A stretch of DNA of 64,000 nucleotides, taken from Stanieria sp. NIES-3757. GTDB lineage: Bacteria > Cyanobacteriota > Cyanobacteriia > Cyanobacteriales > Xenococcaceae. A model generated the notes under the pieces. The model saw nothing but the letters and a program-made list of their open reading frames with translations. It was not told the DNA's origin and ran no database searches. Positions 29,752-46,526 of this stretch are shown here, piece by piece. The stretch spans positions 1,426,001 through 1,490,000 of the forward strand of contig AP017375.1 in the NCBI GenBank assembly GCA_002355455.1, read 5' to 3'. The position numbers and the translations under genes are program-made. How positions within the stretch are numbered: position 1 is the stretch's first letter; each line of letters begins with the position of its first letter.

Positions 29752-29895
29752 AACTATTCAAACTTTAACTTATCAATTATTAAACATTGATTGACAGTCA
29801 AAAAATTGAAATTGGAGAAAAATCAGGACTAATTTCGGTATTGTTTAAATAAACTCAAGATATTAATAGCTCAATTTAGCAATAGGTAATTTTTA

Positions 29896-30363
29896 ATGAT
29901 CGATCCTACTACTATAACTATTACAACAACTGCGATCGCAACTGTCATTTTCAATAAAGCCATTGAAAAAGGTGGAGAAAACTTAGGCGGAGCAGTTTAT
30001 GACAAAATTGGTCAACTGCTCAACTTTATTCGTGATAAGTTTCAACAAGAAGGTAGAGAAGGTAAACTCCTTGAAGCTCAAGAAGACCCTTCTGAGAAAA
30101 ATCAAGATAGATTTAAACAAGAATTGGCAGAATTAATGGAAGATGATGAAAAATTTGCCAAAAAGCTCAAAATACTGATTGATGAAATTAAATCGGATCA
30201 AAAGGCGAATACGATATTCTTCAAAGACATGAATATCAAAGGTAGTGCCAAATTAGGCAAGATCGATCTCAAGTCTAGAGGAGGAAATATGGAAGCAGTG
30301 ACTGATAGCAAAATTGGTGAAGACCTTACAATGGGTGATGTGAATATGACTAACAACGGTTAA
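29896..30363 (+). CDS. Putative NLR-associated effector with C-terminal amyloid-like motif
   Basis: A 155-residue protein without a described enzymatic motif. The N-terminus is hydrophobic and Thr/Ile/Ala-rich (ITITTTAIATVIFNKAIEK) and continues as predicted helix (ENLGGAVYDKIGQLLNFIRDKF). This resembles the small helical domain found in cyanobacterial partners of NLR proteins (Bell-type). A charged helical region (60-110) follows. The C-terminus (about 115-155) is short-strand, G/D/N-rich, with two related segments: NIKGSAKLGKIDL and SKIGEDLTMGDVNM. The second matches residues 18-35 of the NB-ARC protein two genes downstream (GxDLTxGD). By analogy with HET-s/BASS systems it could be a membrane-active effector triggered by templated folding. 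The function is inferred. Confidence 0.5.
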   Translation: MIDPTTITITTTAIATVIFNKAIEKGGENLGGAVYDKIGQLLNFIRDKFQQEGREGKLLEAQEDPSEKNQDRFKQELAELMEDDEKFAKKLKILIDEIKSDQKANTIFFKDMNIKGSAKLGKIDLKSRGGNMEAVTDSKIGEDLTMGDVNMTNNG

Positions 30364-30388
30364 TGTAATTAAATTTCGATATTGCCCT

Positions 30389-30652
30389 ATGTCTTCAGAA
30401 CAGATTAATCAAAACCAAATTATAGAAGAAATAAATTTAATTCCAGAAGATAAACACAAGGAATTATACAATTTAATTCATAAATTTAGAATGGGTTTGG
30501 AGGGATCACAGAATAATATAGATGAAATTATGCAGTTTGCAGGTAGTTGGTCAGATATGCTTGAAGAAGATTTTAGCTATTTCTATGAAGAAATAGAACA
30601 GCGTCGAGTCATGGTTAAAAACATTTCGGTAAAATCAAAATATTACGATTGA
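30389..30652 (+). CDS. Antitoxin-like protein without a partner toxin
   Basis: An 87-residue protein. The pattern EINLIPEDKHKELYNLIHKF, then IMQFAGSWSDMLEEDF and EEIEQRR, resembles small cyanobacterial type II antitoxins that accompany PIN-type toxins. No toxin reading frame overlaps or follows. The normal C-terminal basic tail is replaced by VKNISVKSKYYD. It could be a decayed remnant or have another role within the NLR locus. The 25-bp gap after the effector gene and 47 bp before the NB-ARC gene suggest one transcript. Confidence 0.5.
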   Translation: MSSEQINQNQIIEEINLIPEDKHKELYNLIHKFRMGLEGSQNNIDEIMQFAGSWSDMLEEDFSYFYEEIEQRRVMVKNISVKSKYYD

Positions 30653-30699
30653 AAGAATGGACGCTATAGCAAGTTCATCTCAAGCTAAAAGAATTAATT

Positions 30700-33060
30700 A
30701 TGAGTGAGTCCCCAAACCCACAACAGCCTTTTCAAAAAGTTTTCAGCAACGTTTCGGTCGGTGGTGACTTAACTGCGGGGGACATTACTCTTATCTACAA
30801 TCAATATACTAATTTAGATGTAATTCCCAAACCACAGGGAATTCCGCAAAATATTATCTCCAGCAGCACAGATAAATTTGTCGGACGGGAAAGAGATTTA
30901 GAAAATCTCAATCAACAGCTACAACGTCATAACCAAGTAGTGATTGCTGCGGTTGAAGGAATGGGAGGAGTTGGCAAAACTGAACTAGCTATCCAATATT
31001 CTTTACTCAATTTACAGTTAAAAACTTATCCAGGGGGTATTTGCTGGATACACGCTAGAGAACAAGATATTGGATTGCAGATAGTAAATTTTGCTCGGAC
31101 AGATTTAGATTTAAACCCTCCAGATGACTTAGAGTTACCAGATAGAGTCCGTTGGTGTTGGAAACGTTGGCAAGAAGGAAACACCCTTATAGTCCTTGAT
31201 GATGTCAATGATTACAGTGAGATCAAACCTTATCTACCACCACAACCATCTCAGTTCAAAGTCTTAATTACTACCAGACTAAAATTAGATTTACCTAGTT
31301 CTCTGTATTTAGCAGTTTTATCTGAACCAGATGCATTAGAATTACTCAGCCAATTAGTTGGTTCGGCAAAAGTAGAACAAGAGTTAGAAACTGCCAAAGA
31401 ACTTTGTCAGCGTCTAGGTTACTTACCTCTAGCATTGCAGTTAGTAGGGCGATACATAAAGAAACGCAGAATATCCTTAGCTGAAGAATTGCGACGTTTG
31501 GAGGAAAAAGGATTAGGACATCCTTCTATGGAAGTTCCAGAAAACGATCCTTCTTGGACTCTTGAAATTAAGCGTGGAGTAGAGGCAGCTTTTGAATTGA
31601 GTTGGGATGAGCTAAAAAAGTTTGAGTTTGCCCAAGAGTTGGGTTGCTTATTAAGTTTGTTTGCTTTAGCTCCTATTCCTTGGACACTAGTAGAAAGTGC
31701 TGTCCCTTATAGAGAGCCAGAAAGTCTAGAAAACGACCGAACTGAGTTAGAAAATTTACACCTGTTACAAGGTGAAGATGTTTATCAATTACACCAACTA
31801 ATTCGAGAATTTTTGAATAAGAAGCAAATTAATTTAGCTATTGCCGACGAACAAAAGAAATACTTATGCCAAGCTTTGGTCAAAATAGCACAGCATATTC
31901 CCGAAACCCCAACTATTGAATTGATTAAGTCAGTCAAAGATGCTATCCCTCATTTAGAAGAGGTCGCACAAAATCTGATTGTATCAGTCAGGGATGAAGA
32001 TTTAATTTGGGTTTTTAGTGGAGTAGAAAAATTTTATTCAGGACAAGGCTTATATGCACAAGCAGAAACCTGGTGTAAGCAATGTTTATTAGTAGTACAA
32101 ACTCGGTTGGGAGCAAAGCATCCAGATTTAGCTACCAGCCTCAACAACTTGGCAGAACTCTATCGTTCACAGGGAAGATACACGGAGGCTGAACCTCTTT
32201 ACTTACAAGCATTATATTTAAGAAAACGGTCGCTAGGAGAGGAGCATCCAGATTTAGCCATAAGTCTTAACAGCCTAGCTCTACTCTACTATGCACAGGG
32301 AAGATACACGGAGGCTGAACTTCTTTTTCAACAAGTATTAGATTTAAGAAAACGGCTACTAGAAGAGGAGCATCCGGATTTAGCCATAAGTCTCAACAAC
32401 TTGGCAGCATTCTATCGTTCACAGGGAAGATACGCGGAGGCTGAACCTCTTTACTTACAAGCATTAGATTTAAGAAAACGGCTGCTAGGAGAGAGTCATC
32501 CAGATTTAGCTATAAGTCTCAACAACCTAGCTTTACTCTATGAATCACAGGGAAGATACGTGGAGGCTGAACCTCTTTACTTACAAGCATTAGAACTGTA
32601 TAAACGGTTGTTAGGAGAGGAACATCCAGATGTAGCATTCATTCTCAACAACCTGGCAAAACTTTACTATGCACAAGGAAGATATGCAGAGGCTGAACCC
32701 TATTGCCGACAAGCATTAGATTTAAGAAAACGGCTGCTAGGAGAAGAACATCCAGATGTAGCACTCAGTCTCAACAACTTGGCAGAACTCTATCGTTCAC
32801 AAGGAAGATACACAGAGGCTGAACCCTATTGCCGACAAGCATTAGATTTAAGAAAACGGCTTCTAGGAGAAGAACATCCAGATGTAGCATTCAGTCTCAA
32901 TAATCTGGCAAAACTTTACTCTGACCAAAAGCAATACGAACAAGCCAAACCCCTCTATCGACAAGCTTTAGAAATTGCTGAAAAAAGCTTAGGAGTAAAT
33001 CATCCAACTACAATCACTATTCGTGAAAATCTGAAATCTTTAGGGGATGATAATCCTTAA
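30700..33060 (+). CDS. NLR-like NB-ARC ATPase with TPR repeats
   Basis: A 786-residue STAND protein. Residues 15-35 carry a short strand-forming motif (SVGGDLTAGDITL) similar to the C-terminus of the small protein at 29896. The NB-ARC domain begins at about 60 (KFVGRERDLENL), with Walker A GMGGVGKT (87-94), Walker B TLIVLDDVND and the GLPL-like LGYLPLALQLVG. A winged-helix-like region and helical linker follow. From residue 470 there are seven 42-residue kinesin-light-chain-type TPRs (LGEEHPDLAxSLNNLAxLYxxQGRYxEAEP). Such proteins sense a trigger through the repeats and oligomerise through NB-ARC. It has no catalytic effector domain of its own, which fits with signalling to the neighbour. Confidence 0.85.
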   Translation: MSESPNPQQPFQKVFSNVSVGGDLTAGDITLIYNQYTNLDVIPKPQGIPQNIISSSTDKFVGRERDLENLNQQLQRHNQVVIAAVEGMGGVGKTELAIQYSLLNLQLKTYPGGICWIHAREQDIGLQIVNFARTDLDLNPPDDLELPDRVRWCWKRWQEGNTLIVLDDVNDYSEIKPYLPPQPSQFKVLITTRLKLDLPSSLYLAVLSEPDALELLSQLVGSAKVEQELETAKELCQRLGYLPLALQLVGRYIKKRRISLAEELRRLEEKGLGHPSMEVPENDPSWTLEIKRGVEAAFELSWDELKKFEFAQELGCLLSLFALAPIPWTLVESAVPYREPESLENDRTELENLHLLQGEDVYQLHQLIREFLNKKQINLAIADEQKKYLCQALVKIAQHIPETPTIELIKSVKDAIPHLEEVAQNLIVSVRDEDLIWVFSGVEKFYSGQGLYAQAETWCKQCLLVVQTRLGAKHPDLATSLNNLAELYRSQGRYTEAEPLYLQALYLRKRSLGEEHPDLAISLNSLALLYYAQGRYTEAELLFQQVLDLRKRLLEEEHPDLAISLNNLAAFYRSQGRYAEAEPLYLQALDLRKRLLGESHPDLAISLNNLALLYESQGRYVEAEPLYLQALELYKRLLGEEHPDVAFILNNLAKLYYAQGRYAEAEPYCRQALDLRKRLLGEEHPDVALSLNNLAELYRSQGRYTEAEPYCRQALDLRKRLLGEEHPDVAFSLNNLAKLYSDQKQYEQAKPLYRQALEIAEKSLGVNHPTTITIRENLKSLGDDNP
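32107..32988 (+). repeat. Seven 126-bp tandem repeats encoding TPRs
   Basis: Seven in-frame units of 126 bp encode the 42-residue TPRs. Adjacent units share long identical DNA stretches, for example CACAGGGAAGATACRCGGAGG-like and AACATCCAGATGTAGCA-like blocks. This indicates recent expansion or gene conversion. A degenerate eighth unit follows. Confidence 0.85.
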
Positions 33061-33395
33061 AATTACTACTCGATCTGGAATTTAATATTACATCAACCTA
33101 GAGACAAATAGTCCAGATCACTCCCCCGACACTCACGACAAAAACGCGATCTCGCTTATAGCGAGGCACTGCGCGGACAGCTTCGCTGGCGCATTCGCGA
33201 TCGCAATTAAATGAATGTCAAGATTTAAAGATATATTACCCTAGTATTAAGGTCGGTAACAATAGTAGGATGGTAAGTTGCTTTACCGTAGTTTGATTAG
33301 AAGCAGAAGTAAATTAGAACTTGCCACTGTTATCTAAACAGAAGCTGAACCTATTAATGCCAGTATTGTAGAGAGTATATCCCCAGTAGAAGTAT
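33061..33395. other. Intergenic region with compound palindrome
   Basis: 335 bp. A mosaic of short palindromes lies at about 33145-33204: CTCGC-TTATA-GCGAG (33151-33165), CAGCTTCGCTG (33178-33188) and a terminal TTCGCGATCGC. This is a composite of the dispersed-repeat type common in cyanobacteria. No gene seen. The remainder should contain the promoter of the arginine dihydrolase gene. Confidence 0.6.
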
Positions 33396-35501
33396 ATGGC
33401 TGAGTCAATTCGCATCCTGATGTGTTCCCCCGACCACTACGACGTAGATTATGTGATTAATCCGTGGATGGAGGGAAATATTCATAAATCCTCGCGCGAT
33501 CGCGCTGCCGAACAGTGGCAAAAATTATATCATGTCCTTAAGGATTTGGCGGTGGTAGATTTAGTTCCGCCTCAGCAAGGTTGGCCGGATCTGGTGTTTA
33601 CGGCTAATGCTGGTTTAGTTTTGGGTGATGATGTCGTTCTTAGTCGTTTTTATCATAAAGAACGTCAGGGAGAAGAGCCTCATTTTAAGCAATGGTTTGA
33701 AGAGAATTGTTTTACCGTCCACGAATTACCTAAAGATTTACCTTTTGAAGGTGCAGGAGATGCCCTTTTAGATCGAGAAGGGCGTTGGTTGTGGGCTGGT
33801 TATGGTTTTCGTTCCGAATTAGATTCCCATCCTTATATTGCTAAGTGGTTGGATATTGAGGTTTTATCCTTAAGGTTAATTGACGATCGCTTTTATCATC
33901 TGGATACTTGTTTTTGTCCTTTAACTGATGGTTATTTACTTTATTATCCCGATGCCTTTGATTCCTATTCCAATCGCTTGATCGAAATGCGTGTACCCAC
34001 CGAAAAGCGAATTGCGATTGAAGAAGCTGATGCAGTTAAGTTTGCTTGTAATGCGGTTAATGTCGATCGTACCGTAGTAATGAACCAAGCAAGCGACAGT
34101 CTCAAACAACGTTTAGCCGAAGCAGGTTTTTCTGTAATTGAAACACCTTTAACTGAATTTCTTAAAGCTGGTGGTGCAGCAAAATGTCTGACTTTAAGAA
34201 TTACTGAACCAGTTCTACCAGATGTTCATGCTAACGTACCTGTAGAGAGTCGGATTATTCATTTGGAAGGACATCTTTTGGATGCTGGAATAATGAATCA
34301 GGCTTTAGATTTAGTCGTGGAAAACGGCGGTAGTTTTAGAGTCTTGAATTTTAATTTAGGTATTGAAAGACAAAGTACTTCCGCTGCTGATGTGAGGGTA
34401 TCTGCACCTTCCCATGATGTCATGGAAGATATCATGCGTCAGTTGATCGATTTGGGTGCAGTTGCACCTCCACAAGAAATTTGCGATGTCATTACCGAAG
34501 TTTGTACTCAAGCAGGTGTTGCCCCCGATGACTTTTATGTCACTACGATTTATCCCACTGAAGTTAGAATTAATTGTGAGTGGGTGAGAGTTCAAAAACA
34601 ACGCATGGATGGGGCAATTGTAGTTAGTAAGACGAGTGATGGTATAGTTGCTCAATGTAAAATTTTACGAGACTTACAAGAAAGCGATCGCGTTGTAGTT
34701 GGCGTTGAAGGTATTCGTACGGTTAAGAAAACGGAATCCAGAGAACAACGTAACTCTCAAGAATTCAGCTTCATGGGTGCTGGTGTATCAAGTGAAAGAA
34801 GAGTTGAATTAGTCGTCGAACAGATCGCTTGGGAATTGCGTCAAATTCGCGATCGCGGTGGTAAAGTTGTGGTTACCGCAGGGCCAGTGGTAATTCATAC
34901 TGGTGGCGCACAACATCTTTCTCGTTTGATTCGCGATGGTTATGTGCAAGCCTTACTAGGAGGTAACGCGATCGCAGTTCACGACATCGAACAAGCGTTG
35001 ATGGGTACTTCATTGGGTGTGGATATGCAAAAAGGAACACCCGTAAGTGGTGGACATCGTCATCATCTCAAAGTGATTAATACCATTCGTCGTTATGGCA
35101 GTATTGCTAAGGCAGTAGAAGCAGGAATTCTAACCAAAGGCATTATGTATCAATGCGTTAAAAATAATATTCCCTTCTGTTTAGCTGGTTCAATTCGCGA
35201 TGATGGCCCTCTTCCCGATACTCAAATGGATCTGATTAAGGCACAAGCAGAGTATGCCAAATTGATTGAAGGAACAGACATGATTCTAATGCTTTCTTCG
35301 ATGCTACATTCGATTGGAGTTGGTAATATGACTCCTGCGGGAGTAAAAATGGTTTGTGTAGATATCAATCCTGCCGTTGTGACCAAGTTAAGCGATCGCG
35401 GTTCGGTCGAATCTGTCGGAGTAGTTACCGATGTCGGTTTATTCCTCAGTTTATTGGTTAAACAGTTGGAAAAATTGACCAGTCCTTATCAAGTTGTTTA
35501 A
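33396..35501 (+). CDS. argZ: Arginine dihydrolase / ornithine cyclodeaminase-type bifunctional protein
   Basis: The ArgZ/AgrE family of cyanobacteria. The N-terminal domain converts arginine to ornithine with release of CO2 and two ammonia. In AgrE the C-terminal domain converts ornithine to proline. The protein has 701 residues. The N-terminal catalytic residues of the guanidine-modifying fold are at the Synechocystis ArgZ positions: N71 (TANAGL), E118 (FEGAG), H168 (FYHLD) and C264 (AAKCLTL). The C-terminal half (about 285-695) is the LOR/SDH-type region with the nucleotide-binding-like VVTAGPVVIHTGG and MLSSMLHSIGVGNMTP. This is a key enzyme for mobilising nitrogen from cyanophycin or arginine. 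It is monocistronic with a strong terminator. Confidence 0.93.
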   Translation: MAESIRILMCSPDHYDVDYVINPWMEGNIHKSSRDRAAEQWQKLYHVLKDLAVVDLVPPQQGWPDLVFTANAGLVLGDDVVLSRFYHKERQGEEPHFKQWFEENCFTVHELPKDLPFEGAGDALLDREGRWLWAGYGFRSELDSHPYIAKWLDIEVLSLRLIDDRFYHLDTCFCPLTDGYLLYYPDAFDSYSNRLIEMRVPTEKRIAIEEADAVKFACNAVNVDRTVVMNQASDSLKQRLAEAGFSVIETPLTEFLKAGGAAKCLTLRITEPVLPDVHANVPVESRIIHLEGHLLDAGIMNQALDLVVENGGSFRVLNFNLGIERQSTSAADVRVSAPSHDVMEDIMRQLIDLGAVAPPQEICDVITEVCTQAGVAPDDFYVTTIYPTEVRINCEWVRVQKQRMDGAIVVSKTSDGIVAQCKILRDLQESDRVVVGVEGIRTVKKTESREQRNSQEFSFMGAGVSSERRVELVVEQIAWELRQIRDRGGKVVVTAGPVVIHTGGAQHLSRLIRDGYVQALLGGNAIAVHDIEQALMGTSLGVDMQKGTPVSGGHRHHLKVINTIRRYGSIAKAVEAGILTKGIMYQCVKNNIPFCLAGSIRDDGPLPDTQMDLIKAQAEYAKLIEGTDMILMLSSMLHSIGVGNMTPAGVKMVCVDINPAVVTKLSDRGSVESVGVVTDVGLFLSLLVKQLEKLTSPYQVV

Positions 35502-35519
35502 ATAATTAGGTGGTTGAGA

Positions 35520-35592
35520 AGAGGGGAACAGGGATGCCGATATATTAGTCAATAGAATCCATAACTGGTAACTGTTTACCCCTCTTTTTTTA
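35520..35592 (+). terminator. Terminator of argZ
   Basis: GAGGGGAACAG (35521-35531) pairs with CTGTTTACCCCTC (35572-35584), with two bulged bases, across a 40-nt loop. A run of T follows (35584-35592). Confidence 0.7.
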
Positions 35593-35604
35593 TCCAAAAA
35601 AATA

Positions 35605-36540
35605 ATGAACAGATTAAAATACTTCGGGCTATTAGTAGGATTTAGTTTAATGATTCCTTGTGCTTCTGCCAATCAACCGCCTGTTCCCGAATCAATTACT
35701 TGGTATAACTGCAAAAGTCGCGAAGTTTGGACAAAGGAAAAATCCGCTTGGTGCAAAGAATTATCTAAATTACAAAATACTCAATATCAACTCCCAGATC
35801 TTGGTGAGTTTAATCTTACTAATGGGAAATACAACAATGATGCTGAACGGAAAGTAGTTTTCTTTCAAAATACTCCTGGTACAATTAAATACGATCGCCT
35901 TCCTGATGGTACTAAAATCGCTACAGTTCTTTTAAGTTCTAATACAGGAGGTTCGGGAATTTTTATTCATCTGGTGGTGATGAAAGAGGTAGATGGAGAA
36001 TATCAAACCTTAGCAACTCAATTTTTAGGCGATCGAGTTTGGGTAAAATCAGTTAAATTAGCAGAAAAACAAATCAAAGTTCAACTAATTAAACAGGGAG
36101 AAGCAGAACCCCAGTGTTGTCCTACTCTAGAAGTAGTTCAGACCTATCATTTAGCTGATGGCAAGCTGGAACAACTAGCAGAAGAAAAAATTGGTAATGT
36201 ACCCCTCGATCCAGGACGCAGGTTTTTTACTGAATTAGAAGTAACCGATCAAATTATTGGTGAAGATCCCCTTCAAATTGCCAAGAATCTCTACGGTACT
36301 CAAGAAACTCCCAGTGAAGGCAACTTTCAAGAGGAATTAACTTTAATTGAGCGAGTTTTTAATCAACCAGTTGTTTTACTAACTCAAACAGGTTTATTAG
36401 ATGATTCAATTGAAGGAACGCGCTATCGTTTAGAGTTTAGACCCCAAGGCAAACAATGGCAACTAATTTGGGTAGGACAACAAAATCGCTGTTATCCAGA
36501 CAGAGGTTCACAGGAATGGAATTCAGAACCATGTAACTAA
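35605..36540 (+). CDS. Secreted conserved hypothetical protein
   Basis: A 311-residue protein with a signal peptide (MNRLKYFGLLVGFSLMIPCA, cleaved near ASA/NQ). The first domain has paired cysteines (WYNCKSREVW; AWCKELSKL). The middle segment (LGDRVWVKSVKLAEKQIKVQ; AEPQCCPTLEVVQTYHL) resembles the LppP/LprE-type secreted domain of unknown function. The C-terminal part (ELTLIERVFNQPVVLLTQ to LIWVGQQNRCYPDRG) resembles a cyanobacterial extracytoplasmic module. No catalytic motif recognised. It follows the argZ terminator and is probably separately transcribed. Confidence 0.6.
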   Translation: MNRLKYFGLLVGFSLMIPCASANQPPVPESITWYNCKSREVWTKEKSAWCKELSKLQNTQYQLPDLGEFNLTNGKYNNDAERKVVFFQNTPGTIKYDRLPDGTKIATVLLSSNTGGSGIFIHLVVMKEVDGEYQTLATQFLGDRVWVKSVKLAEKQIKVQLIKQGEAEPQCCPTLEVVQTYHLADGKLEQLAEEKIGNVPLDPGRRFFTELEVTDQIIGEDPLQIAKNLYGTQETPSEGNFQEELTLIERVFNQPVVLLTQTGLLDDSIEGTRYRLEFRPQGKQWQLIWVGQQNRCYPDRGSQEWNSEPCN

Positions 36541-36651
36541 AAAACTAAAGTTTTTCTCGAATTATTGATATACACCATATTTTTACTCCTGCCTCCTGCC
36601 TCAAAAGATCGAGTTTACACCCGATCAATCTGAAAACCGCTATCTTTAAGA

Positions 36652-38115
36652 TCAAATTAGGTTAAATTGTTCCCCAGTAACAACATCGGCACTAGAACCA
36701 TTAGTAATATTCACATTATTTAAGGTAATTTGCTGACCAAAAATATCGGTGACAAGCAAATCTTGTGCGCCATTAAGCGGGTAATTACCATTTAAAACAA
36801 AACGATTATCAGACTCGCGATTAAGTTCTACTAGATTACCGTTGTTGGTAATCAAATCAACGCTTTCAATCGGATAGCGGTGGTTATTTAATCTTACTGC
36901 TGCGTAGTAAGGATTAGTTTCAGCAATTCCTTCGACTACAATACCTTGACCAATGCTATAACCATAAGCCGTTACATAGTCATCGGCAGGCCCGACTAAT
37001 TTATATTCAATATTAACTATTCCATCAACAGGCTCTGCAATCTCAGCGAAAGCTTCCGCACTCAAATCTAAGCCATCGGCTCGTTCGTATAAATAATCTA
37101 CAACTTGAACTATGATTGGAGCAGCACCATCTCTTTGTTTTGGGCCAGATACTTCCAAAAAAGCACCACTTGCTTCCGAACCATTCCATTGCACATTATT
37201 AATTGCAACAATTTTATCTAGTTCACTTTGCACTGGCACATCATAACCAGAAGCCCCCTTACCACCAGAAGGATTAGCAGCATCGTAAAAAGTACCTCTG
37301 CCTTGATAGTTTTGATTAAGCTCTAATTCTGGTTGTAAATTAGGATTGGAAAAAGTATAGATACTGTCCGAAATGCTAGGGCTAGTAAAAGTTGAACCAT
37401 TCAATTCAAAGTTTTGTGGTTCTGAAATGACTGAGTTATTGCCCGTAAACCCAAAAGTTAAAGTTTCTCCCGCAGCAATTTCCCGATTCCAAGCAGCGTG
37501 ACTGACAACATAATTACCATTTTCATTACTTTCAATCGCAGCATCCCAGATATTATTAATTTGATTGGGAAAATCGAATTCCAGACTCCAACTATCAATA
37601 TTGCTACCACTATTATTTGTAATCGCTATTTTGCCTTCAAAGCCACTGCCCCAGTCTTTAATCAACGTAAAGTCAACATCTGCCGATAAATTATCATCTG
37701 GTGTTAGTGTGTCTGAGTTTGCCCTATTTGGAATTTCTGCTACTGGTTTTGGTGTATTAACTGGAGAAGTCTCAATTGTAGAACTAGGATCATCATCAAA
37801 GGAAATATTGGTAGGACTGATAATTTGTCCGTTAACTTTATTGGCGTTAAAGTAAATTGAAATTGTTTGTTGAGAATTAATTATTTCGTTGTAATCTACT
37901 GGCTTTAAAACGTAGCGATTGCCTTCATGACTGACAATTTCAGCCCCCCAAATCATCCCAGGTTCAATTTCAAAAGCAGATTCAAATTCTATTGTCCAAT
38001 CATTAATTGTTTCTCCTGTATTGAAAAGATCTAATCTTCCTGTAAATCCATTATCCCATTGAGTTTTAATGGAAAAATCAGTTTGGATTAGATTATTGTT
38101 GCTTAAAACTTGCAT
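36652..38115 (-). CDS. Expansin-like protein with two CBM2-type cellulose-binding domains
   Basis: A 487-residue protein. Residues about 8-106 and 144-247 are CBM2-type domains (WDNGFTGRLDLFNTG, NDWTIEF; WGSGFEGKIAITNNSG, DSWSLEFDF). From about 270 it resembles bacterial expansins. D1 is a double-psi barrel: GRGTFYDAANPSGGKGASGY (272-291), with the conserved Asp D350 in GLDLSAEAFAEI. D2 is a CBM63-like domain (YYAAVRLNNHRYPIESVDLI, then LLVTDIFGQQI). Expansins loosen cellulose without hydrolysis. There is no signal peptide, so export would need a non-Sec route. GGGAG before the ATG supports the start. The assignment rests on motif resemblance to Bacillus EXLX1. Confidence 0.78.
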   Translation of the reverse strand: MQVLSNNNLIQTDFSIKTQWDNGFTGRLDLFNTGETINDWTIEFESAFEIEPGMIWGAEIVSHEGNRYVLKPVDYNEIINSQQTISIYFNANKVNGQIISPTNISFDDDPSSTIETSPVNTPKPVAEIPNRANSDTLTPDDNLSADVDFTLIKDWGSGFEGKIAITNNSGSNIDSWSLEFDFPNQINNIWDAAIESNENGNYVVSHAAWNREIAAGETLTFGFTGNNSVISEPQNFELNGSTFTSPSISDSIYTFSNPNLQPELELNQNYQGRGTFYDAANPSGGKGASGYDVPVQSELDKIVAINNVQWNGSEASGAFLEVSGPKQRDGAAPIIVQVVDYLYERADGLDLSAEAFAEIAEPVDGIVNIEYKLVGPADDYVTAYGYSIGQGIVVEGIAETNPYYAAVRLNNHRYPIESVDLITNNGNLVELNRESDNRFVLNGNYPLNGAQDLLVTDIFGQQITLNNVNITNGSSADVVTGEQFNLI

Positions 38116-38304
38116 TCAGTTATCTCCCGATGCTCTTTATCAAAAAAGCAATTGTCTTATGTATTACTTCATAATTCCTTCATAATGGAGGAAGGACAGT
38201 GATATCAATCGGAGATAATTGTGATTTTGCGTTTTACGGCAAACTTACAGCAGTTTTCAATTAGGTAGACAATTAGTCAATAAGGGGTCAGAAGTCAGAA
38301 TTTA

Positions 38305-39615
38305 TTGGTTAATACGGCTTTATTTATCTGTTTTTCGATTGGTTGTGCTTGGTCTTCTAGTTTGGGCATGATGATCGTTTTTCGCGCCCTGCAAGGATTT
38401 ACAGGCGGTGTTTTAATCCCAATGGCTTTGACTATCGTGCTGACAAACTTACCCAAATCAAAACAACCAGTAGGGATGGCGATGTTTGCCATGACAGCTA
38501 CCTTTGCCCCTTCAATTGGCCCAACTTTGGGAGGTTGGTTAACCGATAACTTTGGCTGGCAATATAACTTTTATTTAAATCTCATTCCAGGCATAATTAT
38601 GTTAAGTGCGATCGCTTATGCTATACCTGCTAGACCGATGCAACTCGATCTTTTAAAACGAGGAGATTGGTGGGGAATTATCACCATGGCAATTGGGTTG
38701 GGTTCTTTGGAAGTATTTTTAGAAGAAGGAAATCGCAAAGATTGGTTTAGTTCTGGTTTTATTACTCAGCTGTTTGTCATTGCTTTTGCTTTTTTAACTG
38801 CTTTTTTATGGATTGAACTGACTCGTCGTCAACCTTTTATTAAATTGCGTTTGCTGTTGCGTCGTAATTTTGGCATTGGTAGTATTTCTGGTTTAGCGTT
38901 GGGATTGGGGTTATACGGCTCGATTTATATTTTGCCTCTGTATCTGACTCAAATTCAAGATTATACAGCTACTCAAATTGGCGAAGTAATTATGTGGTCG
39001 GGAGTTCCTCAACTGTTTTTAATTCCTTTTGTACCAAAACTAATGCAGCGTTTTGATGTGCGTGTGATTGCAGCAGTAGGATTTAGTTTGTTTGCGGTAA
39101 GCTGTTTTATGAACTCTAGCATGACCAGTGAAACAGGAATAGACCAGTTGCGTTGGTCGCAGTTAGTCAGGGCGATGGGACAACCTCTGATGATCGTTCC
39201 ACTAACTACTATTGCTACAGGGAATATTGAAACCGAACAAGCTGGTTCTGCCTCTGGTTTATTTAATATGATGCGTAATTTAGGAGGTTCGATTGGAATC
39301 GCTACTCTATCAACCTTTTTATCCCGACGAGAACAATTTCATTCGGCCCAAATTGGCGAGGCTGTTTCTTCCTATAATCCCGAAACTCAACAGCGAATCG
39401 AACAGTTAACGCAAACTTTTATCAGTCGTGGCAGTGATGCAGTGACAGCCTCTCAACAAGCGATCGCAACTATTGATAATATCATTCGTCGTGAAGCTTA
39501 TGTGATGGCTTATAATGATTGTTTTTATTTAATTGGTTTTGTTCTCTTACTGTGTGGTCTGACTCTAATTTTTTGTAAAAAAGTTCAAGCAGATAGTGGT
39601 GCAGCAGCCCATTAA
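38305..39615 (+). CDS. DHA2-type MFS exporter, N-terminally truncated
   Basis: A 436-residue drug:H+ antiporter of the EmrB/QacA (14-helix) type. It begins inside the family, at VNTALFICFSIGCAWSSSLG, followed by the conserved FRALQGFTGGVLIPMAL and GPTLGGWLTDNFGWQYNFYLN. Full-length members have about 500-530 residues; the first two to three helices are missing. The DNA upstream (38116-38304) does not encode them in any frame. The only start is TTG at 38305, without a ribosome-binding site. It is probably a 5'-deleted pseudogene, though the open frame is otherwise intact. Confidence 0.75.
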   Translation: MVNTALFICFSIGCAWSSSLGMMIVFRALQGFTGGVLIPMALTIVLTNLPKSKQPVGMAMFAMTATFAPSIGPTLGGWLTDNFGWQYNFYLNLIPGIIMLSAIAYAIPARPMQLDLLKRGDWWGIITMAIGLGSLEVFLEEGNRKDWFSSGFITQLFVIAFAFLTAFLWIELTRRQPFIKLRLLLRRNFGIGSISGLALGLGLYGSIYILPLYLTQIQDYTATQIGEVIMWSGVPQLFLIPFVPKLMQRFDVRVIAAVGFSLFAVSCFMNSSMTSETGIDQLRWSQLVRAMGQPLMIVPLTTIATGNIETEQAGSASGLFNMMRNLGGSIGIATLSTFLSRREQFHSAQIGEAVSSYNPETQQRIEQLTQTFISRGSDAVTASQQAIATIDNIIRREAYVMAYNDCFYLIGFVLLLCGLTLIFCKKVQADSGAAAH

Positions 39616-39695
39616 AACTAAATCATAAACTTTAATTATTCAGAAATTCAACAATTTCAAAGATAAAATTTTGCTGTAACACTTTGGAATTGTTT

Positions 39696-40364
39696 ATGAG
39701 CGATTATAAATTCAACTTAAAACAAAACTATACGTTTAAAACAGGTCAATACTTTCAGCGAGGCTGGCAAATTTTTCAGCAATATCTTTGGCAATTTATC
39801 GGCTTTACTGTTTTGGTAATTGTAATTTCTGCCTTTACTGCCCGTCTTCCTTATCCTTTGGGAATTAATGAAGATGGTCAAGGTGGCATAATTAATGGTA
39901 TTCTTAGTCCAGTTTTAGTGGCTGGTATTTATATCGTAGCTTTCAAAATTGCTAAAAACAGAATAATAAGTTTTAGTGATTTTTTTCTGGCTTTTAATAA
40001 GTTTTTGCCAATTTTTTTGGTTAATTTAGTTGGAACTTTTTTAACAGTACTAGGATGTTTTTTATTAATTATTCCAGGAATTTATTTAGCTGTTGCCTAT
40101 TTATTTGGAATTTGTTTTGTGATTGAAAAACACTTTAGTTTTTGGTCAGCTTTGGAAACTAGCCGAAAAATCATTACTAAAAAATGGTTTGCCTTCTTTG
40201 CTTTTGTCTTGTTGTTAGGATTACTTAATTTAGGTGGATTATTGGTTTTAGGAGTAGGACTAATATTTACAATTCCTTTAACGGTTTGTATTATTGTCGC
40301 TGCCTTTGAAGATATTGTTGGTTTAAATTTAGCAGATACTCAAAGTCTAGAGTCAGAAATATAA
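39696..40364 (+). CDS. Integral membrane protein of unknown function
   Basis: About 222 residues with five to six transmembrane helices. The ATG at 39696 (MSDYKFNLK) is preferred over the in-frame TTG at 39684. The conserved-looking segment FLLIIPGIYLAVAYLFGICF, followed by FWSALETSRKIITKKW and a Gly/Leu-rich helix, is a pattern found in YciC/DUF975-like membrane proteins with unknown roles. No catalytic residues. It is followed by the gene at 40448 on the same strand. Confidence 0.65.
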   Translation: MSDYKFNLKQNYTFKTGQYFQRGWQIFQQYLWQFIGFTVLVIVISAFTARLPYPLGINEDGQGGIINGILSPVLVAGIYIVAFKIAKNRIISFSDFFLAFNKFLPIFLVNLVGTFLTVLGCFLLIIPGIYLAVAYLFGICFVIEKHFSFWSALETSRKIITKKWFAFFAFVLLLGLLNLGGLLVLGVGLIFTIPLTVCIIVAAFEDIVGLNLADTQSLESEI

Positions 40365-40447
40365 AAAATTATCTTGCTGTTATTTTAAGGTAAACTATCT
40401 GCAATTAAACTACTTTGTTTACGTTGGTTTGATAGAGTTTAAAAAAA

Positions 40448-41398
40448 ATGAATAATTTTGTTTTATTTTGGGAAATTCCTCTTGCTTTGTTATCTTTTCT
40501 GTTCTACAAAGTAATGAAATTTTTGATTGGTAATTTATTTACTATTTATTTAGCAACTAATCAAAAAAAAGCTACTCAATGGCGGGTTTTATCTCAAGCA
40601 ACAATTGATTCTTTTCTTAGTTTACCTGTCTTAATGACTAAAGGTCCCCGTTGGAATACCCATGCAATTATTGGAACTCTAGGACCTTTTGCTGTCGAAA
40701 AATCAATTTCGTTAGATTTACAATCTGCTCATCATTCTGCTAGTTCTTGGATTGCAGTAGTTTATAGTTTTCCTAGTTACCAAACTATTACTAGTCTTGA
40801 ATCTCATCAAATTGATTTGACTCAATTCTGGCAATCAATTGAACTGAAACCAGGAAAATATTCTTTGGGTCTGAGATATTATGATTGGCGTGATATTGTT
40901 AAGTTACCTGCCATCAAAATAGATAACCAAGACTTTGTGGTAGCTACAGATGTTCCTCATAATATTAACGACTTTTATCGTCATTTAATCAAAGCTAAAA
41001 ATTGGTTTTACTTAAGTTTACACTACTATATTTTTACTATTCTTAAGTTAAGAAAATGGTTGCCAGAATCTTTTGTGCGATACGAATTTTTACCAGTAGG
41101 TGCGCCAGCTACAGAGTTTTTCTATAATTATTTAACTAAAACTCAAACCTTACAATTAGAGTTTAGTAATTCTTTAATTCAAAATTATGATATTTATTTT
41201 ACTATCTATGACCGCTCTAGTTTCCCTTTAGATTATTGTCGAATTCAAACAAAAAAATATACTTTACCAGCGACTGGTGTTAATGGTTATTATCTTTTAA
41301 GAATTCGTCCCAAACCAAATAATTCACGTGAACAAGTAGCTCTTAATTCACAATTAATTGAAGAAAATAATCAGTTTCAACATTGGCTTTTACAGTGA
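40448..41398 (+). CDS. Conserved cyanobacterial hypothetical protein (DUF6208-like)
   Basis: A 316-residue protein with a hydrophobic N-terminal segment (VLFWEIPLALLSFLFYKVMKFLIGNLF) and a mostly soluble remainder. Features include RWNTHAIIGTLGPF, ELKPGKYSLGLRYYDW and GVNGYYLLRIRPK, suggesting a beta-sandwich part. I associate the pattern with an uncharacterised cyanobacterial family (DUF6208, from memory). No function can be given. It is 83 bp after the membrane protein gene. Confidence 0.6.
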   Translation: MNNFVLFWEIPLALLSFLFYKVMKFLIGNLFTIYLATNQKKATQWRVLSQATIDSFLSLPVLMTKGPRWNTHAIIGTLGPFAVEKSISLDLQSAHHSASSWIAVVYSFPSYQTITSLESHQIDLTQFWQSIELKPGKYSLGLRYYDWRDIVKLPAIKIDNQDFVVATDVPHNINDFYRHLIKAKNWFYLSLHYYIFTILKLRKWLPESFVRYEFLPVGAPATEFFYNYLTKTQTLQLEFSNSLIQNYDIYFTIYDRSSFPLDYCRIQTKKYTLPATGVNGYYLLRIRPKPNNSREQVALNSQLIEENNQFQHWLLQ

Positions 41399-41470
41399 TC
41401 AGTTACCAGTTGTAAATTAACCATTAATCATCAACTATCAACCATCAACAAAAAACACTTCGATAAATCT

Positions 41471-41500
41471 ATCTGTGTGTATCTGTGTGCATCTGTGGAC
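41471..41500. repeat. Three-copy 10-bp tandem repeat
   Basis: ATCTGTGTGT, ATCTGTGTGC and ATCTGTGGAC in succession, within a 189-bp spacer that also repeats AACCATCAACCATTAA-like words. A common simple repeat of cyanobacterial intergenic DNA. Confidence 0.7.
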
Positions 41501-41587
41501 AAACAATGAACCATCAACCATTAACCCATTTGATTATTAATGGTCATTAGTATAAGTTACTTACCAATGACCAACAATTATTAAAAA

Positions 41588-42061
41588 TTAAGCCATTTTT
41601 TCAATAATTCTTTGGACAATTTGCATTCCAGTAATGGCTTGCCAACCAAACAAACCTAGCAAAACAACATTCAAAGTAATATGAGTATAGCGAGCTAATT
41701 CATTTCCTTTTTGCATATAAGGCACTAAAGCAGCAGAAGTAGCAATCATTCCCGTCATACCCAAACCAGCTAAAAGATGAGGCCCTAAAAATAATTTGCC
41801 ATTATTAATATAGGTAACCCCCATACCACCAATTGTGCCTAAAACCATCAAAGCTAGCAAAATTGACCCAATTTGATGATGTTTCAGACTAAAATTCTTT
41901 TTAACTAATTCTTTTCTAACTTCTTTATCTGCGTTGCGAGTACGTCTAATTTGGATACCCGAATATAAAGCATAAATTGTTAAACCCAACAATACCCACA
42001 TTAAAATAGGATGACCAAATTGTGACCAAATTTTTACTGTGTCTGGAATCTCTAGTGACAT
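41588..42061 (-). CDS. DUF4079 membrane protein
   Basis: A 157-residue protein with four predicted transmembrane helices. Conserved histidines are spread through them: FGHPILMWVLLGLTIY, SLKHHQIGSILLALMVLG, LGPHLLAGLGMTGM, and RYTHITLNVVLLGLFGWQAI. This arrangement resembles a cytochrome b561-like four-helix bundle. It matches the DUF4079 family of cyanobacteria and plastids, whose function I do not know; haem binding is an inference from the paired His. The gene is convergent with the DUF6208-like gene and divergent from the ankyrin gene. Confidence 0.78.
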   Translation of the reverse strand: MSLEIPDTVKIWSQFGHPILMWVLLGLTIYALYSGIQIRRTRNADKEVRKELVKKNFSLKHHQIGSILLALMVLGTIGGMGVTYINNGKLFLGPHLLAGLGMTGMIATSAALVPYMQKGNELARYTHITLNVVLLGLFGWQAITGMQIVQRIIEKMA

Positions 42062-42200
42062 AGTGTTCTTCTCAAATCAACCCATAATTTTTATAAAACT
42101 TAACTTAACATAAAGCAATATTAGAAAGTTAACTGTTATTTCCCTCAAAAACCTTAATTAAAAGTTTGTCAAACTGACATAATCTGAAAACAGTAGGGTT

Positions 42201-43508
42201 ATGAGTTGGGTAACAGGGATGATTCTTCGTCAAAATACTTCGTTATTACAAGCAGTTATTAATGGCGATCGCTTTTTAGTCCAAGAGTTATTAAGTCAAG
42301 GTAGCGATCCTAATGATCGCGATGGCAAAAATACTACCGCTTTAATGTATGCTGCTCAAAAAGGTTATACCGAAATTGTCAATTTGTTAATTCAAGCTGG
42401 CGCAGACGTTAATCATAGCAATCAACCTCACCGTATTACTGCTTTAATGATGGCAGCAGCAGCAAATCAAATTGATGTTGTTAAGATCTTAATTAATGCT
42501 GGTGCAGATCTGAATCAAGTTAATGACGATGGTACCCCTGCTCTGGCGATCGCAACTTATCGTGGTTATTTACAAGTAGTTCGACTTCTAGTAGCAGCAG
42601 GTGCAGAAATTAATATTGGCGATCGCGATGGAGATAGTCCTTTAAGTCTAGCTATTGCAGCAAATCAGCCTGAAATAGTCAAAGAAATAGTCCAAGCTGG
42701 TGCAGCAATTAATAGTCGCGATCTTCAAGGAGAAACTCCCTTAACTATAGCGACAGAAAAGGGTAACTCCTCAATTATTGATATTTTATTAGCAGCAGGC
42801 GCGCAGATCGACTTAACCACTACCAGAGGAGAAACTCCTCTAGCGATCGCAACAACTAATGGAAATCAAGAGATTGTTCAACAGCTATTAAAAGCTGGTG
42901 CTAATCCCAATTTGGCAGATTTACAAGGAGACACACCTTTACATATAGCCACAGTCGAAGGCTATCGGGATTTAGTCGCAATGCTACTAGAAACTCGTGC
43001 AGAAGTTGATTGTCGCAATAAAATTGGTGATACCCCGTTAATGATAGCTTGTTTGCAAGGGTATCAAGAAATTGTAGAATTATTAATTCGCTACGGTGCT
43101 AACCCTCAACTCAAAAATCAAGAAGAAATTCCGTTAACTTTAGCCTTGGCACACAATAACGAACAGATTATCAAACTATTGCTAGCAGCAGGTGCGGATC
43201 CCAATACCCGACTTCCAGACGGCAAAACTATCCTCATGCAAGCTTGCGATCGCGGACAAGTTAAAATCATTGAAGAACTCATTAAAGCAGGTGCAGATGT
43301 TAATATTCAGGATCGTGCTGGCGCGACAGCTTTAATGTGGGCAAGTCATCGAGGTTACACTGAAGCTGTCGAAACTTTATTAAAAACCAATCAAGTTAAT
43401 CTCGATCTTCGCAATCGTGGTGGTTATACGGCCTTAATGCTAGCGAAATTTAATGAATATGCTGAAGTTGTCGAGTTACTGCAACAAGCAGGTGCAGCAG
43501 AAAAGTAA
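42201..43508 (+). CDS. Ankyrin-repeat protein
   Basis: A 435-residue protein made almost entirely of about twelve 33-residue ankyrin repeats. Typical units are DGKNTTALMYAAQKGYTEIV-NLLIQAGADVN and GDTPLHIATVEGYRDLVAMLL. No signal peptide, membrane segment or catalytic domain, so it is probably a cytoplasmic scaffold; the partner is unknown. The start could be ATG 42201 or the in-frame ATG at 42219, and neither has a strong ribosome-binding site. Several repeats share GCGATCGC codons, so HIP1 octamers recur inside the gene. Confidence 0.88.
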   Translation: MSWVTGMILRQNTSLLQAVINGDRFLVQELLSQGSDPNDRDGKNTTALMYAAQKGYTEIVNLLIQAGADVNHSNQPHRITALMMAAAANQIDVVKILINAGADLNQVNDDGTPALAIATYRGYLQVVRLLVAAGAEINIGDRDGDSPLSLAIAANQPEIVKEIVQAGAAINSRDLQGETPLTIATEKGNSSIIDILLAAGAQIDLTTTRGETPLAIATTNGNQEIVQQLLKAGANPNLADLQGDTPLHIATVEGYRDLVAMLLETRAEVDCRNKIGDTPLMIACLQGYQEIVELLIRYGANPQLKNQEEIPLTLALAHNNEQIIKLLLAAGADPNTRLPDGKTILMQACDRGQVKIIEELIKAGADVNIQDRAGATALMWASHRGYTEAVETLLKTNQVNLDLRNRGGYTALMLAKFNEYAEVVELLQQAGAAEK

Positions 43509-43733
43509 CCAGACAAAAATTATTTTTAAATCGCAGGACAGCAAAAACCCATCAAGGTCGCATTTCAATCATTTTAATAGAGGAGTTGTCTATACCGATA
43601 ACTTTTCAAAAAGCTCAAAAAAAATTTATATCTATCTCAAGGAATAGTGATAACCATTCGACTGATAGAAGCGTGTACCTAAGTGATTTTGATTTACTGA
43701 AAGTGCAGTGAAAAAAAATAAACTTGTACCATA

Positions 43734-44273
43734 ATGCCTAAATTAAATATTGGACTTACCGAAGACGAACGTCATGGAGTGATTGACTTATTGAACCGTG
43801 ACTTAGCAGATTTATACTTACTTTTGATCAAAACCAAAAAATATCACTGGGATGTTATTGGCCCTCAGTTTCGTACCCTTCATCAGTTATGGGAAGAACA
43901 TTACGAAGCTTTGACTACTAGCATTGACGCAACAGCAGAAAGAGTTCGCGCTTTAGGAGGATATCCTTTAGGAACAGCAGCGGGTTTTCTCCAACACAGT
44001 TCTATCAACGAACACGCCAACGATTTACCTTCCGCAACTGAAATGGTTGAACGTTTGGTACAAGACCACGAACAAATTATTCGTAACCTTAGAGAACATA
44101 TCGATCAGTGTTCAGAACAATTTCACGATGAAGGAACAGCAGATTTCCTCACTGGCATGATGGAACAACACGAAGAAATGGCTTGGATGCTACGTTCTTT
44201 TCTTGAAGGTGAAGATTTACAACCCAGTGGCGATCGCCCTGGTTCAGAAACTCAACCTGCTGTTAAGGCATAG
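43734..44273 (+). CDS. dps: Dps family ferritin-like protein
   Basis: A DNA-protection ferritin that oxidises Fe(II) with H2O2 and stores iron in a 12-mer shell. It has 179 residues. The intersubunit ferroxidase ligands are present: H38 (KYHWD), H50 (LHQLWEEHYEAL), D65 and E69 (SIDATAERVRALGG). The C-terminus extends by about 20 polar residues. It is first in a cluster of stress-type genes. A short GC hairpin follows. Confidence 0.92.
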   Translation: MPKLNIGLTEDERHGVIDLLNRDLADLYLLLIKTKKYHWDVIGPQFRTLHQLWEEHYEALTTSIDATAERVRALGGYPLGTAAGFLQHSSINEHANDLPSATEMVERLVQDHEQIIRNLREHIDQCSEQFHDEGTADFLTGMMEQHEEMAWMLRSFLEGEDLQPSGDRPGSETQPAVKA

Positions 44274-44316
44274 TGTGCCTTTGAAGACCACAGCAGTCGC
44301 AAATTAATTGATTATT

Positions 44317-44334
44317 CGCCCTGTATTAAGGGCG
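44317..44334 (+). terminator. Hairpin after dps
   Basis: CGCCCT (44317-44322), loop GTATTA, AGGGCG (44329-44334), followed only by ATACCTTT. A weak terminator or processing site. Confidence 0.4.
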
Positions 44335-44399
44335 ATACCTTTCTCTTCCTATCAAAAGAACAGTAAATAAGAAATTTAATCACAAGGACAAATTTTATC

Positions 44400-45167
44400 A
44401 TGGCGGAAACCTATCAAGCAGAACGCACTATCAGCGCAGTTTTAAAAGAAGAACGCCAGGTAGATAATGTAGTTAGACGTTTATTAGATCGTGGTGTACC
44501 TCAAGACCATATCTCGGTTATGGGACAAAACTTTCAATCCCAGACCCGTATTGCTGGTTTTGTAACCAAAAAAGATGTAATCTTTGGTGGGTTACGGTCT
44601 GGCGCAATCTTTGGTTCTCTGTTTGGTTCTCTTCTCAGTTTGCTTACTGGAGTAGGTGTACTATTTATTCCTTTTGTTGGTTCAGTAGTTGCAGCAGGAC
44701 CAATTAGCGCAGTACTTTTAGGCGCAGCTACAGGTGCTTTAGCTGGTAGTGCAGGTGCTGGTTTGGCTTCAGCCTTAGCTACTCTGGGTATGCCAGAAGA
44801 CAAAGCCACTGTTTATGAGACTCGCCTCAAAGCAGGAGAATTTTTAGTCATGGCAGAAGTTCCTGCCGACCGTTCTGGCGAATATCAACTATTAATTGAA
44901 AGTGCAGGTGGTGAAGAGATTAACGTTAGCGAAACTACTTTACCCCGTGCTTGTTCAGGTCGTTGTAGCGGTCCCGAAAACTTATCCCCAGAAGTCCGTA
45001 CTCACCTATCCTCAGAAGCTCAACAAGATTTTATCACTCGTTATAACGAAGTTTTTGATGAAACCAACAATCCAATGCAAGCAGAACAAGCTGCTTGGGA
45101 AAGCATCAAAGAAAAATATGATGAAGATGACAACGGAGTTTGGTCTAAAACAAAAGTAACCGCCTAA
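44400..45167 (+). CDS. Stress-type glycine-rich protein with C-terminal ChaB domain
   Basis: A 255-residue protein. The first 45 residues resemble the general-stress GSP17M-type domain ([34 protein letters not shown]). Next comes a hydrophobic Gly/Ala region (about 60-135, [19 protein letters not shown] and [19 protein letters not shown]) that could insert in a membrane. The C-terminus (about 196-255, [25 protein letters not shown]-type, ending DDNGVWSK) is a ChaB domain, linked in other bacteria to cation transport regulation. A cysteine pair lies at ACSGRCSGP. The function is unknown; the neighbourhood suggests stress. Confidence 0.75.
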
Positions 45168-45219
45168 GCTTGAAAATTTAAATATGTTTGGCAATAAAAG
45201 TTACATGAGGTAATATTTA

Positions 45220-45381
45220 ATGCAAAAATATCAATGTACGGCTTGTCAATATATCTACGACCCCGAACAAGGAGACCCCGATTCTGACATTCCACCTGGT
45301 ACTCCTTTTGAAGATATTCCAGATGATTGGTATTGTCCTCAATGTGGCGTAGACAAATCTATGTTTGAACCCATTGATTAA
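45220..45381 (+). CDS. Rubredoxin
   Basis: A 53-residue iron protein for one-electron transfer in the cytoplasm. The two knuckles CTAC (C6, C9) and CPQCG (C39, C42) would bind one iron, and the aromatic core Y11, Y13 and W37 is intact. It is the short classic form with no membrane anchor, so it is not the photosystem II assembly factor RubA. GAGG lies about 10 nt before the ATG. It is 52 bp after the ChaB protein gene and is followed by a terminator. Confidence 0.93.
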
Positions 45382-45421
45382 GTAGCAAATTTATTATTGC
45401 CGACAGTAAGCAAAAAATAAT

Positions 45422-45461
45422 AAAAGCGGAGTTATCCAAATTAGAGGCTCTGCTTTTTTTG
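45422..45461 (+). terminator. Terminator after rubredoxin gene
   Basis: AAAGCGGAG (45423-45431) pairs with CTCTGCTTT (45448-45456), including one G-T pair, and is followed by T residues to 45460. Confidence 0.75.
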
Positions 45462-45799
45462 TTTATCTATCTAAAGATAGATTAATTCAATATTTACTCT
45501 GATTAAAGAGTTAGGGTTATTAATTTATTTCTTTTATTATTTAATAATTAAGACTTTAGAGTATTTAAGGCCTAATTGCCAGAGAAAACCATCTTTTGTT
45601 GACTAAAAACAAAATAATTTTAATCAGAAAACAGTATTTATATATTTTTAAAAATTAAAATATTTGAAATAAATTACTGATTATTTAATAAGTTTTACTT
45701 AAAATAAAGAGCAAAATAGTTTCAATCTTAAGATAGAAGTAAAATTAGCAATTGTTTATTAATGTAGAAGATGAAATAACAATAAATAAGGAATTAATT
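45462..45799. other. AT-rich intergenic region before csbD genes
   Basis: About 340 bp, very AT-rich, without a convincing gene. It should contain the promoter of the three csbD-like genes. AAGGAATTAATT immediately precedes the first start. Confidence 0.45.
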
Positions 45800-45982: not shown

Positions 45983-46032
45983 TAACTTTTTCAATTTATT
46001 TATTTAATAAAATTAAACCAGAAGGTGAAGTT

Positions 46033-46215: not shown

Positions 46216-46290
46216 TATCTAAATCAAAATCACTTTATAGAAAATTAGGCATTATTTTTTATCGAAAAAACGAGGAGTTTTACAAGATAT

Positions 46291-46473: not shown

Positions 46474-46492
46474 TTAAACTTATAATTTAGTT

Positions 46493-46526
46493 CGGGGCTG
46501 ATCGGAAAATTTCTGATTCAGCCTCG
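46493..46526 (+). terminator. Hairpin after csbD cluster
   Basis: CGGGGCTGA (46493-46501) pairs with TCAGCCTCG (46518-46526), including one G-T pair, but lacks a long T run. A probable weak terminator or 3' stabiliser. Confidence 0.5.

Follow-up and report, generated by a model that had tools for sequence, protein, structure and literature searches.

A leaderless, mostly CBM2-bearing expansin clade with altered functional residues in one family of Cyanobacteria

Introduction

Expansins have usually been discussed for plants and plant-associated microbes. A well-defined bacterial reference is EXLX1 of Bacillus subtilis (YoaJ; PDB 2bh0/3d30; NCBIfam NF041144), which is built of the domains D1 and D2. 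According to PMC11040781, D71, Y73 and D82 are essential in this protein, W125, W126 and Y157 are its glucan-binding residues, and selected expansins, including CmiEXLX2 of Clavibacter, keep all six of these residues as well as K119. Clavibacter also provides the closest described architectures. Namely, CmiEXLX2 consists of an N-terminal CBM2 and an expansin, and CelA is an expansin fused to GH5 and CBM2 (PMC11040781 and PMC7729394). Expansin homologues that lack predicted signal peptides are mentioned in a passage of PMC7729394 that does not name their sources. With respect to export, PMC4390845 describes HesF of Anabaena PCC 7120 as an exported protein in which a signal peptide was not found and reports that its secretion depends on HgdD, a TolC-like protein. 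Among the papers listed by our literature search, none was on cyanobacterial expansins, although the survey of expansin evolution by Chase et al. 2020 (New Phytol) may list such members, and nothing was found that links expansins with Pleurocapsa or Stanieria.

Here we describe an expansin gene in a stretch of 64,000 nucleotides from Stanieria sp. NIES-3757, referred to below as the window. Similar to B. subtilis EXLX1, its product had the D1-D2 fold and the equivalents of Asp71, Glu75 and Asp82. In contrast to EXLX1, it had Leu in place of Tyr73 and Tyr-Tyr-Asp in place of Trp125-Trp126-Tyr157, had lost Lys119, carried an 8-residue insert, lacked a signal peptide and started with two CBM2 modules. 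The joining of CBM2 to the N-terminus of an expansin was shared with CmiEXLX2, but the window protein had two CBM2 and, unlike CelA, no GH5. Bacterial expansins with CBM2 or GH5 were already known.

Domain organization and predicted fold

The gene was located on the minus strand (window 36652..38115) and encoded a protein of 487 aa that had no cysteines and a pI of about 4.05. Its ATG was immediately preceded by an in-frame TGA, so that an upstream extension was impossible. The Pfam CBM2 model PF00553 matched the protein twice (E 9.5e-36, 122.6 bits against a cut-off of 24). The first CBM2 spanned about residues 12-110 (37786..38082, minus) with W20, W56 and Y75 at the binding positions, and the second one spanned residues 146-242 (37390..37680, minus) with W155, W190 and W209. 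The remainder of the protein scored 112.5 bits with the NCBIfam model NF041144 (expansin_EXLX1; cut-off 100), where residues 272-483 aligned with model positions 1-192 of 194 and therefore covered both expansin domains. D1, a double-psi beta-barrel at about residues 270-371 (37003..37308, minus), was assigned from NF041144 and the fold match; the Pfam model DPBB_1 by itself gave 20.2 bits, which was under its cut-off of 28.8. D2 had the CBM63-type fold (36655..37002, minus) and, in the alignment and the model, an altered platform composed of Y403, Y404 and D436, with the 8-residue insert (residues 392-399; 36919..36942, minus) situated right before it.

An earlier note on this DNA, made from the sequence alone, had proposed the order CBM2-CBM2-double-psi barrel-CBM63-like, and the two PF00553 matches together with the above-cut-off match to NF041144 bore it out. 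The two motifs named there were also present: D350 (37066..37068, minus) stood in GLDLS and aligned with Asp82 of B. subtilis EXLX1, and NHRYPIE was found at residues 411-417.

The D1-D2 expansin fold expected by the note was obtained in structure prediction as well. The AlphaFold model of D1-D2, built from ten sequences (the window protein and related ones), was of moderate confidence (pLDDT 64, pTM 0.60), with D1 being weaker (low confidence) than D2. A full-length model was set aside (pLDDT 52). All top 11 Foldseek matches of the D1-D2 model were expansins of microbes and plants; the TM-scores over the whole model were just 0.44-0.55, at an rmsd of about 9-10. According to VIA-align, the first seven chains, which were microbial expansins, had Z of 13.4-14.2 over 161-172 residues (rmsd 4.6-5.7), and two grass expansins had Z of 12.5 and 11.8. 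A sequence search of the solved structures with the expansin part returned six distinct sequences at E <= 10: Streptomyces 9ms5 (3.3e-14), Xanthomonas sacchari 9ms4, B. subtilis 2bh0, Talaromyces 7wvr and two from Clavibacter. By its fold and by the curated model, the window protein was an expansin; judging from its aligned residues, it was one without the full functional set of canonical EXLX1.

Distribution and phylogeny

Among 388 Cyanobacteriales genomes, NF041144 was matched above its cut-off in 15, namely 13 of the 27 genomes of the window's family and two genomes of another family (f15). At E <= 0.001 there were 62 matching genomes, and the 47 below the cut-off, which were matches to shorter pieces, were left out. 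In an even phylum-wide sample of 386 genomes, the sole match at E <= 1e-12 was the window's own genome. Viral contigs yielded no relatives of the window expansin at the sensitivity of the scan, and nine plasmid records contained only distant ones (28-35% identical).

The 13 family genomes encoded 17 expansin proteins, including that of the window, and four of these genomes had two copies. The named carriers were Waterburya agarophytonicola KI4 (two copies), Hyellaceae CSU_1_1, Pleurocapsa CCALA 161, Xenococcus MO_188.B8 and an uncultured Pleurocapsa. Seven proteins had two CBM2 and an expansin (479-499 aa), six had one CBM2 and an expansin (mostly 345-346 aa), three were an expansin by itself (243 aa), and in one the expansin was fused behind a GH9 domain. 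In the tree, the 17 proteins formed a single clade (support 100/100) on a branch of length 1.66, so that a recent transfer from another phylum was unsupported. The earlier note had raised horizontal transfer as a question for phylogeny; no recent stray transfer was apparent, and what emerged was a clade on a long branch, made up of proteins from a single cyanobacterial family. The two f15 sequences adjoined it weakly (92/79), and the clade and these sequences may have had one or two origins. The placement of the long branches of the tree (Talaromyces, Vibrio, Myxococcales) was unsure.

The f15 proteins (G253, L121 1255-5160; G118, L122) were CBM2 ... expansin ... GH9 fusions. Similar to the window protein, they were cyanobacterial and leaderless and had CBM2 at the start, and in them the expansin occurred together with GH9. 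They differed from it in that they scored 245-246 bits with the EXLX1 model, had a canonical platform with Lys119, Tyr-Trp and Tyr157, contained four cysteines and were 1294-1301 aa long, with repeated modules that were Calx-beta-like by eye. They showed a second type of cyanobacterial expansin, canonical in appearance and embedded in a larger protein.

The homologue in the sister genome G086 was 90% identical and had the same neighbours and the same start. We compared 14 loci with window 28001-48000 (G249 and G135 being represented by their first copies) and found no conserved neighbourhood across them: shared neighbours were common to G086 alone, and besides it a neighbour recurred only in L115, as a single partial match of 40% identity. 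Window 38305-39615 contained a DHA2-type efflux gene (EmrB family) in which roughly the N-terminal 70 positions of the family model were missing and which was absent from the corresponding place in G086. This gene looked like a truncated insert or remnant.

Groove, platform and CBM2 residues

The 17 clade proteins were aligned with five other expansin rows (two cyanobacterial from f15, one from Myxococcales, 2bh0 and 9ms5), and the residues were numbered as in B. subtilis EXLX1. In the groove, D71 and D82 were invariant in all 17 clade proteins and Glu75 was kept in 16, with Asp in G149. Tyr73 was replaced throughout (Leu in 16, Met in one); in the window protein, the Leu at this site had a Tyr on both sides (Y341, Y343). 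Since Streptomyces 9ms5 had Cys at the same position, Tyr73 was not universal in expansins.

In D2, the W125 position was occupied by Tyr in 12 proteins, Trp in four and Asn in one, the W126 position by Tyr in 16 and Trp in one, the Y157 position by Asp in 16 and His in one, and the K119 position by Gly in 17/17; the window protein had Tyr, Tyr, Asp and Gly, respectively. Directly after the K119 position, all 17 clade proteins had the 8-residue insert, which was found in none of the five other rows, and all five retained Lys119 and Tyr157. Accordingly, the description of D2 as CBM63-like held for the fold and failed for the binding platform. At the same time, D2 need not be inert, as most of the clade proteins keep two aromatics at W125/W126.

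In CBM2, we took positions W17, W54 and W72 to be the surface tryptophans for cellulose binding. The second CBM2 kept all three in 11 of 13 proteins; in the first CBM2, Trp-Trp-Tyr occupied these positions in 7/7. Since the tryptophans of the second CBM2 were so widely kept, CBM2 was probably the new cellulose binder. In the alignment, the departure of the clade from canonical expansins was patterned, and probably cellulose binding shifted from D2 to CBM2 with the D1 groove being retained. The 243-aa expansins of three family genomes (L043, L044 and L045) had no CBM2, and their D2 platform was altered all the same. They were an exception to a takeover of binding by CBM2.

Absence of a signal peptide

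Signal peptides were assessed by the best mean hydropathy of an acid-free 11-residue stretch within the first 45 residues, which was a simple heuristic rather than a dedicated predictor. The window expansin scored -0.01 versus 2.61 for the signal-peptide GH9 from its own genome, and its first CBM2 began already near residue 12. Counted from the starts that were chosen, 16 of the 17 clade expansins had values of 0.23 or less. The remaining protein, the Xenococcus fusion, scored 2.18 for a stretch within its nucleoside-hydrolase domain, and by this heuristic none of the 17 had a convincing signal peptide. The start of G149 was ambiguous (the first ATG/GTG/TTG was at residue 69 of the frame). In the part of the frame that preceded the ATG, G162 had a weakly hydrophobic piece (1.43) and G254 a piece scoring 1.42 with one acidic residue; G135b and G046 had almost no frame upstream.

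A wrong start that hides a leader in the window gene was ruled out by the in-frame stop before the ATG, and the relatives agreed. A sequencing error was ruled out too, because the G086 gene shared the start and the neighbours. The earlier note was therefore right that the signal peptide was missing. It had called this puzzling; the relatives and most CBM2-bearing GH9 cellulases of the family were leaderless too, and the missing leader was therefore a shared trait.

Leaderless and signal-peptide GH9 cellulases

GH9 genes were present in 23 of the 27 family genomes and in all 13 that carried an expansin. This co-occurrence was weak by itself (hypergeometric about 0.06, hand calculation), and the fusions were a stronger pointer. 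In addition to the f15 proteins, Xenococcus MO_188.B8 (L007 2454-5702) combined a nucleoside-hydrolase-like part, GH9 and an expansin in one leaderless protein of 1083 aa.

The genome of the window had three GH9 proteins: two were leaderless and began with CBM2, and the third had CBM3 and a clear signal peptide. As judged by hydropathy, the family followed the same division: most CBM2-bearing GH9 cellulases appeared leaderless, whereas the other GH9 appeared to have ordinary signal peptides. Of the 50 GH9 places, 47 were retrieved, and under the thresholds used L161-L165 yielded no row. Of the 37 rows obtained, two f15 proteins, one 5'-cut frame and one 3'-cut frame were excluded from the comparison. 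The 16 complete leaderless GH9 had no cysteines (one protein had a single Cys), and their C-terminal 50 residues contained 0-2 K/R/H/C; the corresponding values for 17 signal-peptide GH9 were 0-5 and 4-9 (Mann-Whitney p 8e-7 and 1e-6, overstated since close relatives are not independent). Seven further signal-peptide GH9 of another subtype had 2-3 Cys and 2-5 K/R/H/C, overlapping the leaderless group in the latter measure. The excluded f15 proteins had four Cys each and 4 and 3 K/R/H/C.

The CBM2 match of the leaderless GH9 began within the first 25 residues in 14 of 16 proteins, with that of L124 being partial; the exceptions were L126, where CBM2 was at residue 321, and L053, which had no true CBM2. 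The 17 signal-peptide GH9 contained one CBM2 carrier, L144 (2 Cys, 5 K/R/H/C). Two assignments were made individually. L053 (hydropathy 2.18) was classed as leaderless, its hydrophobic stretch being inside the nucleoside-hydrolase domain, and L134 was classed by hand as a signal-peptide protein, since its hydrophobic stretch came after an internal start. Two further features of the window's own genome were observed. In the GH9 protein L119 (1645-3801), the two CBM2 copies at the N-terminus read as the same sequence along most of the module, which would fit a recent tandem duplication. Next to a gene for a leaderless GH9 was an ORF (L003 2350-3243) that resembled an IS transposase by eye.

Possible export route

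From the chosen starts, the 17 clade expansins were free of Cys, had an acidic pI of 4.05-5.05 and contained 0-2 K/R/H/C among their 50 C-terminal residues; Cys upstream of the chosen ATG (three in G135a, one in G254) were outside this count. Low Cys together with few C-terminal basic residues was unspecific, being found in 5 of 43 window ORFs with the expansin included (43 of 44 ORFs were used, one nested ORF being dropped). The other four included a membrane transport component, an SLH protein and a DUF3352 protein. The latter (window 25396-26994) had 532 aa, no cysteine and a C-terminus poor in basic residues.

A type I secretion signal is normally located at the C-terminus. In the window expansin, the last 50 residues were the final D2 strands, the tail aligned with the end of another expansin, and the model aligned with microbial expansins up to residues 225-227 of 227. 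No C-terminal segment past D2 was visible in the alignment or the model, and RTX repeats had no Pfam match in the protein. The genome encoded an HlyB-type ABC gene (TIGR01846, 658 bits, below the cut-off of 725.6) that adjoined an HlyD gene (TIGR01843, 242 bits against 208.65), both unlinked to the expansin gene. The HlyD search had matches in 9 of 14 control genomes and exceeded the cut-off in one. The expansin would leave the cell without Sec, most likely via a type I secretion machine, a route that we favour tentatively and at slightly less than even odds. Similar to the window expansin, HesF was a cyanobacterial leaderless protein, and its export has been observed. It differed in that the accessible part of PMC4390845 does not describe it as an expansin and reports HgdD dependence for HesF itself, whereas the route of the window protein was inferred.

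Discussion

We propose that the window protein is an exported, CBM2-anchored, cellulose-loosening expansin that acts with GH9 on the sheath, with a probability of roughly 60% for the proposal as a whole. A role on cellulose had been suggested by the earlier note and was plausible. The protein would be non-enzymatic and would loosen cellulose outside the cell. The two N-terminal CBM2 would hold it on crystalline cellulose, the D1 groove (Asp340, Glu344, Asp350) would disrupt contacts between glucan chains, and D2, whose own binding platform is partly gone, would be chiefly structural. The partners would be GH9 endoglucanases, of which the CBM2-bearing ones appear mostly leaderless and cysteine-free with CBM2 near the start. 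Together, they would most likely remodel the cellulose-like sheath that surrounds the cells, although we put the cells' own sheath as the target at even odds.

The nearest competitor was a tool for attack or colonization that, with GH9, would loosen the cellulose of algae, plants or debris instead of the own sheath. To our knowledge, some of the carrier strains are not known as epiphytes, which counts against it, and CBM2-bearing GH9 and GH5 enzymes, which would suit it, do occur in the family. Its substrate need not be foreign: the own genome had a cellulose-synthase-like gene that reached 478 of the 699 bits required by TIGR03030, and matches of more than 380 bits were found in 24 of the 27 family genomes and made an own substrate plausible, even though 0/27 exceeded 699 bits and the weak threshold was also reached in 10 of 14 control genomes. 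Waterburya, a carrier of two copies, was isolated from a red seaweed and called its symbiont, and the main text of that paper mentions neither expansin nor CAZy (PMC8580901). We favour remodelling of the cells' own cellulosic coat and regard the attack on algae as possible but the less likely of the two.

The loss of Tyr73 and the altered D2 platform in 17/17, together with the mostly kept CBM2 tryptophans, would also suit a cellulose-binding structural protein or adhesin in which the D1 fold remained and the loosening activity was gone. This was unlikely: D71 and D82 were invariant and E75 nearly so across a deep clade, and the Streptomyces expansin 9ms5 (Cys) likewise lacked Tyr73. We found it similarly improbable that the protein is cytoplasmic and is released by lysis or opening of the mother wall rather than exported by intact cells. 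The lack of both a signal peptide and a visible C-terminal export segment agrees with such a location, but the leaderless state was maintained across 13 genomes (one start being uncertain) and was common to most CBM2-GH9 enzymes, and we know of no cytoplasmic use for binders of crystalline cellulose. Action of D1 on peptidoglycan, suggested by 'peptidoglycan-binding' in the deposited names of 9ms5 and 9ms4, was very improbable given that the CBM2 and GH9 fusions indicate cellulose.

Returning to the exported, cellulose-loosening expansin, a broader and more speculative version, which we consider possible but rather improbable as a whole, would be that pleurocapsalean cyanobacteria export a Sec-leaderless cellulose-remodelling set of expansins and GH9, most of them with CBM2 at or close to the N-terminus. 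In this set, the expansin would bind through CBM2, would be free of Cys for an unfolded, type I-like passage and would open the own sheath. The division between leaderless and signal-peptide GH9 within one family makes leaderless cyanobacterial export directly testable. Moreover, the clade is a natural test of the essential expansin residues, where D71 and D82 stay and Tyr73 and a part of the D2 platform go. Finally, the retention of an expansin clade within one family, alongside GH9 and genes similar to cellulose synthase, would point to a controlled loosening of cellulosic coats in cyanobacteria as well.
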